64,000 bases of DNA. Origin: Methylococcus capsulatus. GTDB lineage: Bacteria > Pseudomonadota > Gammaproteobacteria > Methylococcales > Methylococcaceae. Location of the stretch: the NCBI RefSeq assembly GCF_036864975.1, contig NZ_CP104311.1:3165513-3229512 (forward strand). The letters run 5' to 3'. Shown here in pieces: positions 1 to 14,270 of this stretch (its first letter is position 1; every line of letters starts with the position of its first letter). The notes under the pieces are model-generated. The model was given only the letters and a program-made list of their open reading frames with translations. It had not been told where the DNA came from and did not search any database. Both the position numbers and the translations under genes were made by a program.

Positions 1-939
1 GAATGGGGAATCGACCTGCCTGCGACCGACGAGACCCAGTACAAGGTCGGCTACGGCATCGACGTCGGTGTGAACGGCCGGCGAATTCGGGTGGGCAGCG
101 CCCGCTTCATGGAGATGGAGGGCATCGCGCTGACCCCGGAAATCCAAGAAGCGCTCGATGCCGCCCACCTCGAAGGCTATACCATGGTGATGGTCGCGAT
201 CGGCGACCGGATCGGTGGAGCACTGGAGCTCCAGGCGGCAGTCCGCCCCGAGGTGAAGGACATCGTCGCCGGCCTGCGGGCACGCGGCGTCAAACACCTG
301 GCCATCATTTCCGGCGACCACGAAGCGCCCACCCGCAAACTGGCCGAGGAACTCGGGATGGACCGCTATTTCGCCCAGGTCTTGCCGACGGACAAGGCCG
401 ATTACGTGGAAAAGCTGCAGCAGGAAGGCCGCACCGTCTGCTTCGTCGGCGACGGCATCAACGATTCCATCGCACTGAAAAAGGCCAACGTGTCAATCTC
501 GCTGCGGGGCGCCACCTCTATCGCGACGGATACCGCCCACATCGTGTTCCTCGAACAGGGCCTGGGCAAGCTCTGCGAATTGCGAGACATTTCCCGGGAA
601 CTGGAGCGCAATATCGCGCGCAGTTGGGCCATGATCATCGCCCCCAATGTCGCCTGCGTCCTCGGTGTGTTCACCCTGGGCTTCGGCGTGGCGGCCTCGG
701 TTTTCACCAACAATGTCGCTGCGCTCGCGGCGCTCGCCAATGGTCTGCTGCCGATGCGGAAGGTCGCCCTTTTGGAAGCCGAACGGCGCCACCAGCTCGA
801 ACTCGAGCTGAAGCGCGCGGGCTGTGCTAATGTAGAACGGACCGGAATCCATGAAGCCGGCGCCGCGGCGGAAGTTGTCGACACAGCGGCGGAAATCGAC
901 GAAGCCGACGATGACACGGGGAGCGCGCTGGCGGCCTAG
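1..939 (+). CDS. P-type (P1B-like) metal-transporting ATPase, C-terminal part, 5' end outside window
   Basis: The frame is open from base 1, so only the last 312 residues are visible. They hold the end of the P/N-domain and the C-terminal membrane region of a P-type ATPase. The hinge motif GDGINDS starts at visible residue 150. It is preceded by the SGDHE...A.ELGMD.YFA.VLP.DKA pattern typical of heavy-metal (P1B) pumps. Hydrophobic helices follow at about residues 208-255, then an acidic tail of about 60 residues rich in Ala, Asp and Glu with one Cys. The metal cannot be inferred because the transmembrane CPx-type motif lies upstream. The catalytic motifs that can be seen are intact, unlike those of the homologue at 1805. 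It is the first visible gene of a same-strand cluster running to about 5.5 kb. Confidence 0.9.
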   Translation, partial: EWGIDLPATDETQYKVGYGIDVGVNGRRIRVGSARFMEMEGIALTPEIQEALDAAHLEGYTMVMVAIGDRIGGALELQAAVRPEVKDIVAGLRARGVKHLAIISGDHEAPTRKLAEELGMDRYFAQVLPTDKADYVEKLQQEGRTVCFVGDGINDSIALKKANVSISLRGATSIATDTAHIVFLEQGLGKLCELRDISRELERNIARSWAMIIAPNVACVLGVFTLGFGVAASVFTNNVAALAALANGLLPMRKVALLEAERRHQLELELKRAGCANVERTGIHEAGAAAEVVDTAAEIDEADDDTGSALAA

Positions 940-998
940 AAACCTGGGCCCAACCGAATCGCCTATCTGCTTCGAAACAGCCCACGAGAGAATCGCCC

Positions 999-1520
999 AT
1001 GTCCGATCCAAACACACCTACATCCAGCGGCCGCAGAAGCAAACCAGTACACGCCGCAGCTCCGGAAGGCGCCGGCGGGCGGCCGGCTCCCAGATTTCGC
1101 ATATTCATCGTGGATACCGGCTGGTCCTCCCCAGCTGCCCAGGTGATCCGGGACAATTTCGAGATGATCCGCTCATTCCAGGATGGCGACCCGCTCTACG
1201 TACTTTCCCCGGAACAGTCCCGGGACATCGTCAAGCGGCATCCACAGTTCATCGGCAAGGACCCGGTGCTCATCGTCCGCGACATGCAGCGGTCCGGCCC
1301 GCGCGACGGCGGCGAATACCACGGATTCCATCTCAATCTGGGATTGATCCAGAAGCCCGTAAGGGCACTGCACGCTCTGCAGGAGTTCCTGCGCTTCTTG
1401 AGTCTGCACCACGACAGCCCCAATATCGAAAAGGACATCAAGGACAGACTGCACAAGGACGGGTTCATGGGCACGATCGAAGTGATCCGTGAGGGCGCCA
1501 AGGACGCCATGGGCGCCTGA
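999..1520 (+). CDS. Conserved hypothetical protein between two P-type ATPase genes
   Basis: 173 aa, soluble, with no signal peptide or membrane segment. The first 30 residues are low complexity (Ser, Gly, Pro, Arg). From about residue 32 there is a compact domain beginning FRIFIVDTGWSSPAAQVI, an alternation of hydrophobic strand and helix that resembles a small Rossmann- or thioredoxin-like fold, but I do not recognise the family. There is no Cys and no obvious metal ligand cluster apart from scattered His. It starts 59 bases after the ATPase fragment and is followed by the small membrane protein at 1576, so it is probably co-transcribed and may be a cytoplasmic accessory of the pump. The function is unknown. 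Confidence 0.7.
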   Translation: MSDPNTPTSSGRRSKPVHAAAPEGAGGRPAPRFRIFIVDTGWSSPAAQVIRDNFEMIRSFQDGDPLYVLSPEQSRDIVKRHPQFIGKDPVLIVRDMQRSGPRDGGEYHGFHLNLGLIQKPVRALHALQEFLRFLSLHHDSPNIEKDIKDRLHKDGFMGTIEVIREGAKDAMGA

Positions 1521-1575
1521 CGGGACCGCCCGATCGAGCCGCATTTTCACCCCACCAAGACCGGAGGAAAAACGC

Positions 1576-1767
1576 ATGGAACAGGTGACGAACGCACTGA
1601 CCACAGCCCTGGCGGCCATTTTTCTGTCGGCCATGATCATCGAAGTCCGGCGCCGCCAGAAGCATCTGCAGGAGCTCTACAACGTCCTTGACGAGCAAGA
1701 CAAGGCGATTGTCGCGGAACTCGACCGTATGGTCGAACTCGGCGAAATCGAACCCTACGCCTATTAG
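1576..1767 (+). CDS. Small single-span membrane protein of the P-type ATPase cluster
   Basis: 63 aa. This start is chosen because a strong Shine-Dalgarno (ggaggaaa, 1562-1569) lies just before ATG 1576. Residues 5-22 form one hydrophobic helix, followed by a basic stop (RRRQKH) and a charged amphipathic helix ending in an acidic tail with several Glu/Asp. The predicted topology is N-out or buried with a cytoplasmic tail. Small one-span partners of P-type ATPases are known elsewhere (for example mycobacterial PacL proteins beside Ctp pumps), but I see no sequence signature linking this one to them. Position between a live and a dead P-type ATPase is the only functional hint. Confidence 0.65.
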   Translation: MEQVTNALTTALAAIFLSAMIIEVRRRQKHLQELYNVLDEQDKAIVAELDRMVELGEIEPYAY

Positions 1768-1804
1768 CCGCCTCTCAAACCAACAATCCGACAACAACTG
1801 GTAG

Positions 1805-4165
1805 ATGGCCCATAGCATCACGTTCGGTTCCAACTGGCTGCGCATCGAGGCTACGGCGGTCTTCGGCCCCGGCCGGGCAACGATTGCCCGCCGTTTTGCC
1901 CGGCAAGTGCTGGCCCTCCCGGAAGTCGAGTCACTCGAGCTGGAACCCTCCCGGGGATATGCGCTCATCAGGCACCGCACCAGAAAAGGAAACGTCGATG
2001 CTTTCCGCCGGCGGCTGGCGGCCGCGGTGGGCGCCGATGACGAAGCACTGACAGAGCGGGATTTGCCGCAATGGCCGGCGGATTCCCCCGTGACGCTGCA
2101 TCGGCATGATGGCCTGATCTCACTGTTCCGGATCGGATCCGCCGACGTTGGTTGGCTGGAGTTACGCCATCCCCTCCTGAAGGGGGATGTTAGATGCCTC
2201 CGGAACATCGAAGCTGCGCTCGGCGCACTCGATGCCGTCCGGCACATCTCCGGCCACGCTGCTTCCGGCACAATCCGGATACGCTACGACTCTGATTCGC
2301 TGAAACCTTTGCCCCTCATACGCATCGCCGAAAGATTTCTGAGCACTGAAACGATGCTGCGTGTTCCCGAGCCCACAGCGGTGGATTTCCGGGTCGCCAA
2401 TGCCAGCGTCGGACTCGGCGCCGTGGGGGAACTGATGCTGCCGCTTGCGACACCGGTCGCGGCGGGTCTGCTGGTGGCGAACAATCTCAAGGTTTTGCAG
2501 GATGCCGGCAAGCAGCTTGGCCGCGGAAAACTGGGCGTGCCGGTGTTTCACACCGCCCTGCTCGCCTGCTCGATCGCCACGGGTCAGGTCCTCGCTTACG
2601 CCCTGACCGAATGGTCTTTGCGCTATTGGCAGCAGAACTGGCGGAAACAGCTGGTCCGGGAAACCCGGGCGCTCTTGGAAGACAGCCTGCCGATTCCGGC
2701 GCAGACCGTCCGGGTGGGTGCCGACGGCACCGAGTCACTGGTCGCCCCGACCGATTTGCATACCGGCGAACGGGTCAAAGTTCCAGCACCGCGGGTCATC
2801 CCGGTCGACGGCGTCGTCCTCGCCGGCCAGGCCTTGGTCCAGGAAACCAGCCTCCGCGGAAGCCAAGGCCCGGTGCGGAAAATTCCCGGTGATGAAGTAC
2901 TCGCGGGGTCCGTCGTAGTCAGTGGCTCGCTGGACATCGAAGTCGTCCGCATCGGAGCGGAAACCCGGGCTGCTAGTCTTAGCCGGTCGGTTCTCGACAC
3001 CGCCACACGGATGCCTTCCGACCAGGCCATGCGGCGCAAAGCCGAAGATCTGGCAGACCGCGCGGTGCTCCCTACCCTGGCCACCGCCGGCATGGGCTGG
3101 GCCGCGGGCGACCTGATCACGGCGGGCGCGATCCTGCACCAGGACTGGGTCAGTGGTCCCGGCATGGCTCTGCCGATGCAGGCGCTCCGGGACATGCGGC
3201 TGGCCTTGCACAGCGGCGCCCTGCTCAAATCGGCCTCGGCCCTCACCCGCCTGAAGGACAGCGACTTCCTGGTGATCGACGGCGATCTGCCCGGCCTCCT
3301 CGATCCGCAGCTCGAACTGGCCGAAGTGGCCAGCCAGGTGCCGGATACCGATGCGATTCTGCGATATGCCGCAGGCGCCGGACTGTTCCTCGGTGACGAA
3401 CGTGCCGAAGCGCTGGCCCGAAGCTGCGTCCAGCGCAGGCTGGTCGTCCGCAGGCCAGAGCTGCTGTCGCTGGAGGCCGACGCGGTCGAGGTGCGGAGCG
3501 GCCGCCATACCGTCAGTCTGACGGGAGCGCTCAGCCACTCCAAGGCGGTCACGGCGCCATTGCGGATGCGTATCGACGGCACCGACGTGGCCGAGCTGCG
3601 GTTCACTTACTCGCGCTTGCCGCGCGCGACTCAGACCCTCGCCCGTCTCCGCGCGCTCGGCATGCAGCAGATATTCGTCGTCTCCTCCCGGCCGGACGAT
3701 GAAGCCGCCGAACTCGCGCGGCGTCTGGGTGCCGATCTTTCCGGTGGAGGATTGAACCCGGAGCAAAAGATCCGCTTTCTCCAAGGGCTGAAAAAACGGG
3801 GTGTGCACGCCACCGTGGTCGGCGACTTCGGCAAGGAGCCAGCCACGGCGAGCGAGGCCTATGTCGCCATCGGCTTGGGAAGCCAGATCGCCGAGGGCGG
3901 CCCCTGCGACATCGCGATCCTGGGCGAATCGCTCGATCCCCTGGTGGCTCTGATGGAGCTGGCCCAAGGCCACGATGCCAACGTCGTTTCGGCCTGCCGC
4001 ATGGCGGCGATCCCCAATCTGCTGTGCATCGCCGGCGCTTTCGCTGGACTGCTTAACGGCATTACTTCCGGCATCATCGCCAACCTCGGTGTCATGAACG
4101 TCGACCGCCGTATGCGGGCAGACCTGCAGATGGCAAAGGTGTGCCGGGTTCCGGTTCTGCGCTGA
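1805..4165 (+). CDS. Catalytically dead P-type ATPase homologue (pseudo-pump)
   Basis: 786 aa, the normal length for a P1B ATPase and open throughout. Domain order: two degenerate ferredoxin-like (HMA-type) domains without CxxC (about 1-180), membrane segments around 205-270, an actuator-like domain (about 300-390), another membrane pair around 425-460, P/N-like domain (about 480-720) and final helices (about 725-765). Each diagnostic motif is changed: the TGES loop reads RGSQ (351-354), the CPC/SPC helix motif reads SGPG (450-453), DKTGT reads DGDLPG from D492, and GDGIND reads GDFGKEP (from G673). The phosphorylatable Asp position survives but its Lys-Thr-Gly context does not. ATP-driven transport is therefore unlikely. 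A structural or regulatory partner of the upstream ATPase is my inference. Confidence 0.8.
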   Translation: MAHSITFGSNWLRIEATAVFGPGRATIARRFARQVLALPEVESLELEPSRGYALIRHRTRKGNVDAFRRRLAAAVGADDEALTERDLPQWPADSPVTLHRHDGLISLFRIGSADVGWLELRHPLLKGDVRCLRNIEAALGALDAVRHISGHAASGTIRIRYDSDSLKPLPLIRIAERFLSTETMLRVPEPTAVDFRVANASVGLGAVGELMLPLATPVAAGLLVANNLKVLQDAGKQLGRGKLGVPVFHTALLACSIATGQVLAYALTEWSLRYWQQNWRKQLVRETRALLEDSLPIPAQTVRVGADGTESLVAPTDLHTGERVKVPAPRVIPVDGVVLAGQALVQETSLRGSQGPVRKIPGDEVLAGSVVVSGSLDIEVVRIGAETRAASLSRSVLDTATRMPSDQAMRRKAEDLADRAVLPTLATAGMGWAAGDLITAGAILHQDWVSGPGMALPMQALRDMRLALHSGALLKSASALTRLKDSDFLVIDGDLPGLLDPQLELAEVASQVPDTDAILRYAAGAGLFLGDERAEALARSCVQRRLVVRRPELLSLEADAVEVRSGRHTVSLTGALSHSKAVTAPLRMRIDGTDVAELRFTYSRLPRATQTLARLRALGMQQIFVVSSRPDDEAAELARRLGADLSGGGLNPEQKIRFLQGLKKRGVHATVVGDFGKEPATASEAYVAIGLGSQIAEGGPCDIAILGESLDPLVALMELAQGHDANVVSACRMAAIPNLLCIAGAFAGLLNGITSGIIANLGVMNVDRRMRADLQMAKVCRVPVLR

Positions 4166-4220
4166 ACAGCCCGGCGTTCGCCGGAGTCCGGAGCCTTCCC
4201 CGCCAGTCCTGCGGATACGC

Positions 4221-5009
4221 ATGAAACACCTCATTCCAGCCGTACCACCGAGCCGTTACGAAGCGGAACAGATCCGGGCCATCGCCGCATGGAAACGGCG
4301 CAAGCCTCATCTGGCGAGCCCGATCCTGAACCGCGCGCGGCGGCCACTGGTCCGCCTGAGCCGGAAGGTCTTACCCGTCCCCGCTTCGCGATTCGCACTC
4401 GATGCCCTCAACAAGATGGCCGAACAACTGGTACGGGACGATTGGATCCTGCGCCATAGCGGATGCCGCAACCTGGAGGAAATCGGCGCACAGTCGCTGG
4501 AATTCAGCGACCGCCTGGCCGACAAAGTCATCGAAGAAGGACTCAAACTCGCCACCGGCGTAGGTGCCATGACCGGCGCGGGCAGCATGGGTACCGTCCT
4601 GGTAGGCGTTCCGGCCCTGCTGGGTGTGGCTCTGCGCCTGATCCACCGCGTGTCTCAGGCTTACGGTTATTCCACGGAGCGCACGGGCGACCGCAGTCTC
4701 ATGCTGCACATCCTGGCGCTGGCCACCGCCGACACACCCGAGGAACGAGCACGCGCCTTGGATGATCATCATTGGCAGCTCGAACATCACCTCGTCGGCG
4801 ACGCCGTGAACGATGCGGCGCTGGCGGTGCTGCAACGGATCGTGCTCGGCCGGAACCTGGCATCATTCGTTCCCGGCCTGTCCGTCGCGCTCAATGCCTA
4901 TGCCAACCGGTCCTTCAGCCGGCGCGCCGGCCTCGCCGCCAAGCGCGTTTTCCAGGAACGTTGGCTGCTCGATCACGGCAGGATCGCAGACTGGCTAGCA
5001 CCTGCATGA
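4221..5009 (+). CDS. EcsC-family protein
   Basis: 262 aa. The central segment (about residues 95-150) is glycine- and alanine-rich with a long amphipathic/hydrophobic stretch (LATGVGAMTGAGSMGT onward) followed by a VPALLGVALRLIHRVSQ helix, the pattern of the EcsC family named after Bacillus subtilis EcsC. The biochemical role of that family is not established. No signal peptide. It begins 55 bases after the pseudo-ATPase and shares strand and orientation with the cluster. The start is weakly supported because no good ribosome site is visible. Confidence 0.7.
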   Translation: MKHLIPAVPPSRYEAEQIRAIAAWKRRKPHLASPILNRARRPLVRLSRKVLPVPASRFALDALNKMAEQLVRDDWILRHSGCRNLEEIGAQSLEFSDRLADKVIEEGLKLATGVGAMTGAGSMGTVLVGVPALLGVALRLIHRVSQAYGYSTERTGDRSLMLHILALATADTPEERARALDDHHWQLEHHLVGDAVNDAALAVLQRIVLGRNLASFVPGLSVALNAYANRSFSRRAGLAAKRVFQERWLLDHGRIADWLAPA

Positions 5010-5075
5010 ATCGCGGTTGAGCCGTGCCACCTTCCGCAGGTAGTATGAATAATTAAACTCCGAAACAGCACCAAC

Positions 5076-5489
5076 ATGACCGAAAGTCCTCATTCCAGGC
5101 GCAAACCTTCAAAGGGGCGTGACAAGCCTGCCGCCCCCCCAGCCGCGTCCGGGCATGGCGGACAGGAAGCGGACGAAGCTTCCCGGATAAAAAGCCTGGA
5201 GACACTTGACGCCCTGGCCATCGAACGGAAAACCGAACAGCGGATACGCCGCATGCCGCACGATGTCGCCTGGCTGCTGATCACCGCCGGTGTCGTCGGA
5301 CTGGTCACGCCCGGTGTGCTCGGCCTGCCTTTCCTGGCCATGGGGGGGCTGGTGTTATGGCCCGGCAGCAGCACGCGCCTGGAACGGTGGCTTAACGGGC
5401 AACCGCCGCGGCTGCTGAAAGGCAGCATGAAACAGATCGGCCGTTTTCTCGACGACCTGGAACGGCGCTATCCGCCGTCTGCCCGCTAA
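5076..5489 (+). CDS. PGPGW-type small membrane protein
   Basis: 137 aa. The N-terminal 45 residues are hydrophilic and basic. Residues about 65-105 carry two closely spaced hydrophobic segments with the turn motif VTPGVLGLPFLAMGGLVLWPG, which matches the 'putative transmembrane protein (PGPGW)' family. The tail is basic. The family has no known function. It is 66 bases after the EcsC-like gene and is probably the last member of the cluster. A short GC stem at 5500-5514 followed by a T-run at 5525-5530 may be a weak terminator. Confidence 0.65.
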   Translation: MTESPHSRRKPSKGRDKPAAPPAASGHGGQEADEASRIKSLETLDALAIERKTEQRIRRMPHDVAWLLITAGVVGLVTPGVLGLPFLAMGGLVLWPGSSTRLERWLNGQPPRLLKGSMKQIGRFLDDLERRYPPSAR

Positions 5490-5540: not shown

Positions 5541-6389
5541 ATGCTGAGCTACCGCCACGGCTTCCATGCCGGAAACTCCGCCGACGTCTTCAAGCATGCG
5601 GTGCTGACGCAGATCGTCCGCTCGCTGCTACGCAAGCCGGCCCCCTTCTTCTACCTCGACACCCATGCCGGCGCCGGCCGTTACGACCTGGAATCGGCCA
5701 TGGCGAAGCAGAACCGGGAACATCGGAGCGGAATCGAGCGCTTGTGGAAGCTGCCCTCGGTACCGCCCGAGCTGGAGGATTACCTCGCCGCGGTTAGGCT
5801 GCTCAATCCAGGCGGAAGATTACGGTTTTATCCGGGTTCGCCGCTCATCGTCCGGCATTTCCTGCGCAGCGGCGACCGGATGGCTCTGTGCGAGCTGCAT
5901 GGCACCGAAGTCCGATCGCTGCGCTCCAGCGTCGGTGGCGAACGGCGGATCACGGTCCACCCGATCGACGGCTACCAAGGTCTCAAAGCCTTCCTGCCGC
6001 CACCCGAGCGGCGCGGCCTCGTGCTCTGCGATCCGCCGTTTGAACTCCGCAACGAGCGCGAGCGGATGGCAGAAGCCGCGGCGGCCGCATGGAAACGCTG
6101 GCCCACCGGCATTTTCGCCTACTGGTATCCGATCCAGGATCGCCGCACCGCCGACTGGCTACGCCGGAAATTCCGCCAGACCGGCATCGACCGGTTGCTG
6201 GCGATGGAACTCTCGGTGCTGCCCGAAACCGCCGACAAGCGGATGAACGGCAGTGGCATGATCGTGGTCAACCCGCCTTGGCGCCTCGACGAACACATGA
6301 AGACCCTGCTGCCCTGGCTGCACGCAACCCTCGCCCCCGAAGGCGAAGGCGGCTGGCGTCTGGAGTGGGTGGCGGGCGAACCGGCCTGA
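5541..6389 (+). CDS. rlmJ: 23S rRNA (adenine2030-N6)-methyltransferase
   Basis: 282 aa from ATG 5541, giving the family's characteristic N terminus MLSYRHGFHAGNSADVFKH; an upstream in-frame ATG at 5514 would add nine non-conserved residues. RlmJ methylates A2030 of 23S rRNA using S-adenosylmethionine. Visible hallmarks are the Y-R-H-F-H-A-G-N start, the DTHAGAGRYDL SAM-binding segment near residue 47 and the catalytic DPPFE motif near residue 164. Length matches E. coli RlmJ (280 aa). It is convergent with ndh (18 bases between stops). Confidence 0.93.
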   Translation: MLSYRHGFHAGNSADVFKHAVLTQIVRSLLRKPAPFFYLDTHAGAGRYDLESAMAKQNREHRSGIERLWKLPSVPPELEDYLAAVRLLNPGGRLRFYPGSPLIVRHFLRSGDRMALCELHGTEVRSLRSSVGGERRITVHPIDGYQGLKAFLPPPERRGLVLCDPPFELRNERERMAEAAAAAWKRWPTGIFAYWYPIQDRRTADWLRRKFRQTGIDRLLAMELSVLPETADKRMNGSGMIVVNPPWRLDEHMKTLLPWLHATLAPEGEGGWRLEWVAGEPA

Positions 6390-7766: not shown

Positions 7767-8756
7767 TTAACCCCCGCGCCGGCCGCTGTCTCCTTCGCCG
7801 TGCCCTAGCCCGAACAGCTTGCGATAGCGCCGGCGTGAGGGCTTCCCGGCCAACACCGCGAAACCTTCGCTGAACTGCCGGCGGCAGCGCGACTGGCGCC
7901 GCTCCAGATGGCCGATCAGCGCGCCGATCGCCAGCAGGGTTTCGAGCGGCTGGCCTTCCTGTCTCAGGATTTCAGCCCGATACAAAAGGCGATCGCGCTG
8001 GACGGCGGCGTCCTGGAATTCGCCGAGGACGCCCTGGAGCTTCTTCAAGGGCGCGATGAGGTCCCGGAGTTCGCCATCGCCCCGGAGCGAAGCCGAAAAC
8101 TCCAGCAAATAGCGAAGTTTCTTGCCCTGTTTGCGCAAAGCGTGAAAAGCTTCGGAAGGACTGTCCGGGCCGAGCGATGCGCCCTCCCGCAACATCCGCC
8201 GGTAGAGTTTCCAGATCCGCCGGCCGCTGAGCTCATCGGCGGCGGCCAGGGCATTAGGCGCCGACGGCCGCTTCGGCGCCGGCCGCTCGAGGAAGCGCTG
8301 CCAACTTTCGATCGTGCGCCGGTAATCCATACGCCGCAAACGATCCGCCAGAATCCGGTGGGCGGATGCCGCCTCCCGCTCGAGATACGACTGCAGCGGG
8401 GCCAAGGCCGGCCGCAACGACTCGGGCAGCACCGATTGGTAGAGCGGCAGATCGGCGAGCATGACGTGGCAGTCCCGCAGCGGCCCAGTCAATTCGCCCA
8501 GCCGTCCAAGCCGGTCGAGCCAGCGGCGGACCTCCCGTTCGGGAAATACGCCTTTCATCTGCCCCAGCACGGTCCGGCAGCGGCGCAAGGCTACCCGATA
8601 ATCATGCAAGGCCTCACTATCGCGGTTTTCCAGTATCCCGGATTCGCTGGACTGCATGCGCTCAAGGCACTCTGCCGCGAACCGCCGCACTGCGGCATCG
8701 GCCCGCCGAGCCGGCGCGATGCCGGCCGTCGCCGTTTTTCCCTCGATCTCCTGCAT
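7767..8756 (-). CDS. CHAD-domain protein
   Basis: 329 aa from ATG 8756, chosen because GAGGAG lies nine bases upstream; earlier in-frame ATGs (8780, 8843) lack a ribosome site. The protein is helical and rich in Arg and His with the CHAD pattern: HDYRVALRRCRTVLGQMKG near residue 50 and FHALRKQGKKLRYLLEFS in the second half. CHAD domains bind inorganic polyphosphate through conserved basic residues. No CYTH triphosphatase domain is fused. It is divergent from relA, so the 178 bases between them should hold both promoters, though I cannot name one. Confidence 0.88.
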   Translation of the reverse strand: MQEIEGKTATAGIAPARRADAAVRRFAAECLERMQSSESGILENRDSEALHDYRVALRRCRTVLGQMKGVFPEREVRRWLDRLGRLGELTGPLRDCHVMLADLPLYQSVLPESLRPALAPLQSYLEREAASAHRILADRLRRMDYRRTIESWQRFLERPAPKRPSAPNALAAADELSGRRIWKLYRRMLREGASLGPDSPSEAFHALRKQGKKLRYLLEFSASLRGDGELRDLIAPLKKLQGVLGEFQDAAVQRDRLLYRAEILRQEGQPLETLLAIGALIGHLERRQSRCRRQFSEGFAVLAGKPSRRRYRKLFGLGHGEGDSGRRGG

Positions 8757-8934
8757 CACGCCGCGCTCCTCGGGCAACATACGGTTTCGGCGCCGGCCCG
8801 CAGCGGAAAGCAGCAGTTCTGCTAAGATTGCGCGTGAGCCCACGCAGCCCGATTATGGAAGCGATCCCCCGCGCACGGCAACCGACCGCGCCTGTTCGCC
8901 CCCGCGATCTGGCATTTCCACCCCCCGAAACTGA

Positions 8935-13454: not shown

Positions 13455-14270
13455 CTATCCTTTGATGCCGCCCTGCATCAGCCCACCGAGGTAGTATCGC
13501 TGCGCTGCCAGAAACAGGACGATCACCGGCACCACCGTAAGGGCTGCACCCGCCATCATCAGCTCCGTATCCACCGCATGCTCGCCCATCAGGACGGCCA
13601 GCGCCACTGGAAGAGTATGAAGACGGCTGTCGGTCAAAATGATCAGAGGCCAGAGAAAATCGTTCCAGCTTCCGAGGAAAGTGAAGACCGCAAGCGTGAT
13701 CAGAACAGGCCGGCACAGCGGCAGGACCAGCGACCAGAAGATACGCAGCTCCCCGGCCCCATCCAGCCGCGCCGCATCGAGCAGCCCCTGTGGCAGCGAC
13801 AGCGCATACTGCCGTACCAGGAATATCCCGAAAATGCTGGCGAGCCCCGGAACGATCACTCCGGCATAAGTATTGACGAGGCCGAGCAGCTTCAGCAGCA
13901 GGAACAAGGGCAACATGGCAACCTGCCCCGGGATGACCATGGCGGCCAGCAGCAGCTGGAACAGCCTATCCCGCCCCATGAACGTCAGACAGGCAAAGGC
14001 ATAGCCAGCCGCGGCGTTGACCAGCACCGACAGCGCGGTGACCGCAGCCGCGAGTACTAGGCTGTTCAGCGCATACCGCGCGACTGCCAGCCGGTCGAAC
14101 AAAGCCCGGTAATGCTCCAACGTCGGAGCCTTGGGCCAAAGTGGGGGTGGATAGCGGAGGGCGTCGGCCGGCGGCATCAACGACACCGAAACCATCCAGA
14201 CCAGCGGAAACAACGTCGCCGCCGTCGCCAGCACCAGAACGAGGTAGATCACCAGCTTCGAATACCGCAT
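13455..14270 (-). CDS. ABC transporter permease, MalG/UgpE type
   Basis: 271 aa from ATG 14270 (MRYSKLVIYLVLV); a GTG at 14306 would overlap the upstream gene and has no ribosome site. Inner-membrane permease of a carbohydrate or glycerol-3-phosphate importer. About six hydrophobic helices are visible, with the EAA-type loop LLDAARLDGAGELRIFWSL about two thirds along, which contacts the ATPase. No MalF-type partner, binding protein or ATPase is adjacent: the MalF-type gene is at 32633-33496, the binding protein at 33493 and an ATPase at 47134. Only ten bases separate it from the upstream iron permease homologue, which is not a functional relative. Confidence 0.88.
   Translation of the reverse strand: MRYSKLVIYLVLVLATAATLFPLVWMVSVSLMPPADALRYPPPLWPKAPTLEHYRALFDRLAVARYALNSLVLAAAVTALSVLVNAAAGYAFACLTFMGRDRLFQLLLAAMVIPGQVAMLPLFLLLKLLGLVNTYAGVIVPGLASIFGIFLVRQYALSLPQGLLDAARLDGAGELRIFWSLVLPLCRPVLITLAVFTFLGSWNDFLWPLIILTDSRLHTLPVALAVLMGEHAVDTELMMAGAALTVVPVIVLFLAAQRYYLGGLMQGGIKG

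Follow-up and report, generated by a model that had tools for sequence, protein, structure and literature searches.

We analyzed a 64,000-nucleotide stretch of the Methylococcus capsulatus genome (positions 3165513-3229512 of the single 3.43 Mb contig NZ_CP104311.1; hereafter, the window), which opens inside a gene cluster encoding two P-type ATPases and several smaller proteins. One ATPase retains its catalytic motifs (LIVE) and the other has lost them (DEAD). A preliminary description of this DNA reported six consecutive same-strand genes, and the open reading frames agree, lying on the forward strand at 1-939, 999-1520, 1576-1767, 1805-4165, 4221-5009 and 5076-5489. The window edge cuts LIVE, so that its C-terminal 312 residues are encoded at 1-939. 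The full gene (L009:14252-16939; L, G and g numbers denote loci, genomes and genera) starts at 14252 or 14312, about 1.7 kb upstream of the window, and encodes 895 or 875 residues according to the start codon. It is preceded by a seventh conserved gene, u138 (L009:13810-14226). The order in the genome is u138, LIVE, p173, p63, DEAD, an EcsC-family gene and a DUF454-like gene, followed by RlmJ.

LIVE contains all of the catalytic motifs TGES, DKTGT, HP, SGD and GDGIND, as expected of the live pump that had been described here. TGES, DKTGT, HP and GDGxND are intact in 14 of 14 cluster LIVE rows; a fifteenth row, from L057, is a CopA-like pump and was not counted as LIVE. The P1B-type label given to LIVE stands at the family level (TIGR01525, 399.3 bits against a cut-off of 346.25) and does not extend to the metal site. 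The CPC/SPC thiol site of P1B pumps is absent from LIVE membrane segment M4, which reads GTGIRMAAPL, with AAP at that place; three other pumps in the same genome read PCALGLATP. The M4 arginine is present in 12 of 12 LIVE rows. Both LIVE and DEAD fall below the HMA_2 cut-off (19.6 and 18.3 bits against 30), and 13 LIVE and 21 DEAD rows have no CxxC in their first 240 residues. LIVE forms one clade (11 rows, SH-aLRT 99) in a maximum-likelihood tree of 50 rows, which were a chosen set rather than all those found. In five comparisons within Methylococcus, the ratio of non-synonymous to synonymous substitution rates (dN/dS) was 0.085-0.143 for LIVE, with dS above 0.9 in the most distant.

DEAD (1805-4165) is a 786-residue protein with two degenerate HMA-like domains. 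None of the LIVE motifs is complete in it, bearing out the claim of a full-length dead paralogue beside the live one. The TGE, DKTGT, HP and GDGxND motifs are absent from 21 of 21 distinct full-length Methylococcaceae copies and likewise from 7 planctomycete rows (two of them alike), and the GDGxND place holds varied sequences outside the genus Methylococcus. In the same five comparisons, the dN/dS of DEAD was 0.216-0.363, indicating purifying selection, and that of RlmJ was 0.112-0.140. DEAD also forms one clade (17 chosen rows, SH-aLRT 100) in this quick maximum-likelihood tree; the root of the tree is not known, and the tree therefore does not show that DEAD derives from LIVE. An AlphaFold2 (AF2) model of DEAD has a mean predicted local distance difference test score (pLDDT) of 87.6. 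Its structural matches are P-type ATPases, headed by a copper P1B-ATPase (4bbj) and ATP7B and including zinc P1B pumps. TM-scores over the 50 hits listed were 0.21-0.51, and so the matches support domains rather than a conformational state. Conservation is highest in two 30-residue blocks, 241-270 and 421-450, which the model shows as mostly helical and which presumably belong to the membrane domain. Among 30 aligned rows, some of them near-copies, all have Asp447 and 29 have Cys741. DEAD is an anciently retained pseudo-P-type ATPase with a predicted P-type fold.

The smaller proteins of the cluster are conserved to different degrees. p173 (999-1520) is a soluble protein for which neither Pfam (at E 1) nor NCBIfam gave a family match. 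Its AF2 model (pLDDT 76.2) shows a predicted alpha/beta fold, and thioredoxins predominate among its best Foldseek matches (lowest E 0.036, with no match below 0.001). The p173 of this genome has no cysteine, and the model weakly suggests a redox-inactive thioredoxin-like protein. p63 (1576-1767) is a 63-residue protein with one candidate transmembrane span (residues 4-22) and a cytosolic helix; the cytosolic part is conserved in an alignment of 26 rows (23 distinct) that includes planctomycetes. The two genes are duplicated as a pair in L049/L050 and remain together in L129/L130. The EcsC-family label of the gene at 4221-5009 is upheld by Pfam (PF12787, 149.7 bits against 30.4). This gene is an optional member of the module, not being found in the loci of several genera. 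In one Methylococcus genome (G004), only a 65-residue frame at the expected place (L047:10835-11032) matches EcsC, and the gene may be broken there. The last gene (5076-5489) encodes a small membrane protein with a conserved C-terminal region around LDDLERRYP. It had been labelled a PGPGW protein, a label that found no support; the sole Pfam match was to DUF454, below threshold (17 bits against 35.1; 23 bits in an orthologue). This DUF454-like gene is a recurrent neighbour of DEAD in both Methylococcaceae and Planctomycetota. Near the clusters of L059, L069 and L076 there are also proteins in which DUF454 follows a region matching the DEAD profile; among these, the HMA match is above the cut-off in L076 only.

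Neighbourhood in related genomes had been set beforehand as one of the points on which the proposed joint function could fail. It did not fail there, since the gene order was found to recur across Methylococcaceae genera. A scan of named genomes gave 23 loci. Fifteen belong to Methylococcaceae-type records, two of which carry just the title ‘Gammaproteobacteria bacterium’, and the other 8 to Planctomycetota. Among the latter, u138-LIVE-p173-p63-DEAD-DUF454 is present in L076 and L086, L080 ends at DEAD at a contig edge, and L079, L081 and L083 contain LIVE and DEAD with fewer of the other genes. On their short contigs, L084 is without LIVE and L085 without DEAD. Seven of the eight genomes behind the planctomycete DEAD loci contain LIVE at 1e-100. 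Since the order is kept in other genera, where DEAD identity is 38-46%, and in part also in a second phylum, it is more than chance.

We further asked how often the two ATPases occur in the same genome. In all of these searches only the best candidates per genome were scored (up to 10 and 9 in 101 relatives, 2 in a class sample and in another search, 4 and 5 in planctomycetes), and absences are therefore less sure than presences. The DEAD search matched 23 of the 101 relatives at 1e-30, of which 21 contain DEAD proper (E < 1e-80); the matches in G031 and G036 are another ATPase. In the class sample, DEAD was detected at 1e-50 in 2 of 369 genomes, in the genus only. With LIVE called at E = 0 and DEAD at E < 1e-80, 17 of the 101 relatives have both, one has LIVE only (G036), four have DEAD only (G013, G015, G035 and G037) and 79 have neither. 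The contig starts at p173 in G015 and G035 (L054, L127); its end falls within LIVE in G037 (L051) and within a second, truncated DEAD in G013 (L056). In the class of Schlesneria (198 genomes), LIVE was called at 1e-150 (36 genomes) and DEAD at 1e-40 at a place other than LIVE. Both were found in 33, LIVE only in three (G979, G982 and G1015), DEAD only in one (G961) and neither in 161 (Fisher p 6e-33, relatedness ignored). In 28 of the 33 the two genes share a contig and are no more than about 6 kb apart; in the other five they are on different contigs. Partial DEAD matches in ten further planctomycete genomes (1e-42 to 1e-47) were taken, by score and coverage, as other P-type ATPases.

The cluster has genes of the Na/Ca-exchanger family as neighbours in genera g1, g4, g8 and g11, in part of g10, and in the planctomycete loci L080 and L081; a contig-edge fragment is present in the near-identical loci L083 and L084. 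Among 41 relatives, the mean number of exchanger-domain hits (PF01699, about two per gene) is 9.1 in the 16 genomes with the module and 1.8 in the 25 without, several genomes standing at exactly 12, possibly a ceiling. The difference is significant between genus means (p = 0.0003, with one module-free g11 genome entered as a separate group) and within the family (p = 0.003). In the exchanger nearest the Methylococcus cluster (L009:9653-10732), GNVAQ/GNAAQ replaces GNAAE in the second repeat, as in 5 of 5 Methylococcus copies longer than 250 residues. Thus, DEAD is not the only altered transporter of this neighbourhood. Only a 65-residue piece of the L046 exchanger matched; glutamine occupies the same place also in L066, L127 and L081.

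Taken together, these data make it well supported that LIVE and DEAD share a function, because the dead paralogue is kept at full length beside the live one and the two co-occur in two phyla. The preliminary description had proposed a heteromeric or regulated metal transport complex. Joint or regulated function remains the best interpretation; the metal is the weak part, given AAP in M4, no CxxC and sub-threshold HMA_2 matches. As there is no P1B site in M4, the HMA-like domains are sub-threshold without CxxC, and the sister clade of LIVE is linked to natural-product genes (see below), a transition metal should not be assumed, and the substrate is probably not a thiophilic metal. From the exchanger neighbours and the higher PF01699 counts, our best present guess is Ca2+ or another cation handled by Na/Ca-exchanger-family proteins.

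Building on the observed conservation, motif loss, purifying selection and co-occurrence and on the predicted fold, we infer a contact between the two ATPases, a role for DEAD and a substrate. The cluster would encode one membrane cation-handling machine, in which LIVE would be the sole ATP-driven pump and DEAD a non-catalytic subunit or partner. DEAD would be an ancient P-type paralogue without its former phosphorylation machinery, preserved for a membrane domain that may bind, gate or scaffold. Its part would resemble that of KdpA or beta subunits in other pumps, but with a P-type fold of its own. p63 and p173 may act as a pair close to LIVE. A physical LIVE-DEAD heteromer is plausible, and to the reading as a whole we assign about an even chance.

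Several observations weigh against this picture. LIVE is found apart from DEAD: the LIVE operon of G010 (L128) has no DEAD, which lies at two other places in that genome (L053, L062), and second LIVE clusters in two g10 genomes (L129, L130) are without DEAD, a DEAD cluster being elsewhere in them. In G036, LIVE (L126) lies near an exchanger with the other members absent, and no DEAD was found in the genome; 3 of 36 planctomycete LIVE genomes have no DEAD either. Conversely, DEAD has no adjacent LIVE in L053, L057 and L062, and in L063, L077, L078 and L082 it adjoins conjugation-type genes without LIVE (Pfam-checked: TraI_2 in L077, TraG_N in L082). The planctomycete genome behind L084 (G849) has no LIVE at 1e-100. 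An independent role for DEAD is possible. DEAD also evolves faster, its dN being 2.7-3.2 times that of LIVE. Finally, no exchanger lies near the clusters of g2, g6, some g10, L076, L079 and L086, and the exchanger link is statistical, with shared ancestry uncorrected and the neighbouring exchangers counted in.

Such separate copies are what would be expected if DEAD were an independent membrane receptor or scaffold, for instance in cation sensing or in shaping internal membranes, encoded with LIVE for the same physiology. Both the LIVE-free DEAD loci, including those in a conjugative-element context, and the LIVE loci without DEAD favour this explanation; genomes with LIVE nevertheless also contain DEAD in 17 of 18 relatives and 33 of 36 planctomycetes, most often adjacent, and we consider it possible but on the doubtful side. 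The DEAD paralogues of L063, L077, L078 and L082 look as if they were cargo of integrative elements. A decaying, functionless relic would fit the vanished motifs and a dN/dS above that of LIVE. It is hardly credible in view of full-length frames in two phyla, a single clade, dN/dS well below 1, near-invariant residues and co-occurrence with LIVE, and we reject DEAD as a pseudogene in particular for its uninterrupted frames, the selection on it and its place in a single clade. That DEAD keeps some HAD-type phosphatase or autophosphorylation activity is suggested by the aspartate that 18 of the 21 distinct full-length Methylococcaceae copies have at the catalytic column, several as DxD, but KTGT, the TGE glutamate and GDGxND are lost from all of those copies and from the planctomycete rows, which leaves such activity very improbable.

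The remaining alternatives concern the substrate. The sister clade of LIVE consists of ATPases of about 670-760 residues, to which LIVE-profile matches start only after most of the HMA-like region. We examined 17 of their loci (L113-L118 and L131-L141): non-ribosomal peptide synthetase/polyketide synthase (NRPS/PKS) genes were Pfam-confirmed in L116, L131 and L134 and read by eye in L117, L133, L136, L138 and L140, the remaining loci being unclear or different. These sister ATPases occur in methanotrophs and other Pseudomonadota and may transport a natural product or a cation. LIVE might accordingly move an organic molecule (an amine, a peptide-like compound or a lipid), with DEAD as its substrate-binding partner. 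The placement of its closest relatives in NRPS/PKS clusters, the lack of an M4 metal motif and the M4 arginine, shared with 5 of 8 sister rows, speak for this, while the shorter sister proteins, with most of the LIVE HMA-like region unmatched, and the exchanger association, which points to a cation, make it unlikely. Membership of a ferrosome-like (Fez-like) organelle or iron store was considered first, owing to the P1B pump and HMA-like domains. Ferrosomes are reportedly the subject of Grant et al. 2022. L119-L122 look like what we take to be ferrosome (fez) operons with FezB-like ATPases; they encode HHxPGRxR-type HMA proteins and small membrane proteins, and the ATPase M4 reads (S/A)C(A/G)(L/I)KxSTPV. 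The make-up is similar, namely a P1B-like pump, HMA-like domains and small membrane proteins in one operon. This reading was weakened by the tree, in which LIVE stands apart from the L119-L122 ATPases, which join CPC-type pumps, and by the seven cluster proteins having no DUF4405 (FezC) match and no HxxPGRxR-type motif; we regard it as quite unlikely. FezB is described as a putative ferrous iron transporter of ferrosomes (PMC11334425), and P1B-6 is listed as Fe(II) and P1B-7 as unknown (PMC7558416).

Returning to the cation machine, a bolder version would have a heteromeric LIVE/DEAD pump and Na/Ca-exchanger-family proteins load cations into an acidocalcisome-like store in methanotrophs and planctomycetes. 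The only basis for the store is the exchanger neighbours, the polyphosphate-kinase/phosphate-transporter surroundings of L129 and L130, and a nearby CHAD gene in Methylococcus. The LIVE clusters of L129 and L130 are flanked on one side by a polyphosphate kinase and on the other by a PHO4-family phosphate transporter, assignments that were tested with Pfam for L129 alone. As this PPK1/phosphate-transporter neighbourhood represents one lineage (two g10 genomes), we retain the polyphosphate idea only as a speculative extension with a small chance of being right. The CHAD-domain protein (Pfam; window positions 7767-8843, opposite strand) is encoded by the second gene after RlmJ, and a CHAD gene is also near the cluster in the other Methylococcus loci of sufficient length (L044-L047). 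CHAD is described in the literature as a polyphosphate-binding family.

RlmJ itself (5541-6389, forward strand) adjoins the cluster only in the genus Methylococcus, within the flanks fetched. Six Methylococcus genomes share conserved sequence blocks upstream of u138, and promoter and terminator scans gave nothing above shuffles. Elsewhere in the same genome, an unusual P-type ATPase (L010:1942-3966) has an intact DKTGT with LLGGA replacing TGES; its neighbours are presumably a HAMP-like sensor and an S-adenosylmethionine-synthetase-like gene.

Pseudoenzymes are a familiar feature of kinase families, and degenerate sites occur in some ABC transporters. A limited literature search, covering few subscription papers, found no published P-type ATPase that has a catalytically dead paralogue dedicated to it. 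Regulation or completion of LIVE by DEAD, if it occurs, would be a new way of building P-type pumps, and the heteromer reading, if true, would make DEAD the first obligate pseudo-pump subunit among P-type ATPases. The setting is one of organisms important for biological methane oxidation, and the cultivable genus Methylococcus makes the idea testable.

Known systems resemble this cluster in part. The NRPS/PKS-linked ATPases, an unnamed sister clade, are the nearest LIVE relatives in the tree and have an xRxxAPL-type M4 in the five rows with the arginine, but DEAD, p173, p63 and u138 have no match within the fetched flanks of their loci. Ferrosome fez operons share the operon make-up and differ in the proteins encoded beside the pump and, if the L119-L122 ATPases are indeed FezB-like, in the pump lineage. 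The P1B pumps CopA, ZntA and ATP7B are close to LIVE through TIGR01525 and to DEAD through its best structural hits, the copper and zinc P1B pumps, but LIVE differs from them in its M4 site, the HMA-like domains of the cluster are sub-threshold without CxxC, and DEAD has no phosphorylation motif. The KdpFABC pump needs non-pump partners, including the accessory subunits KdpC and KdpF (PMC10654040). This P1A system is thus alike in joining a pump to non-pump partners, but LIVE scores 151 bits against a kdpB cut-off of 527.9, and the partner here has a predicted P-type fold instead of being a K+ channel.

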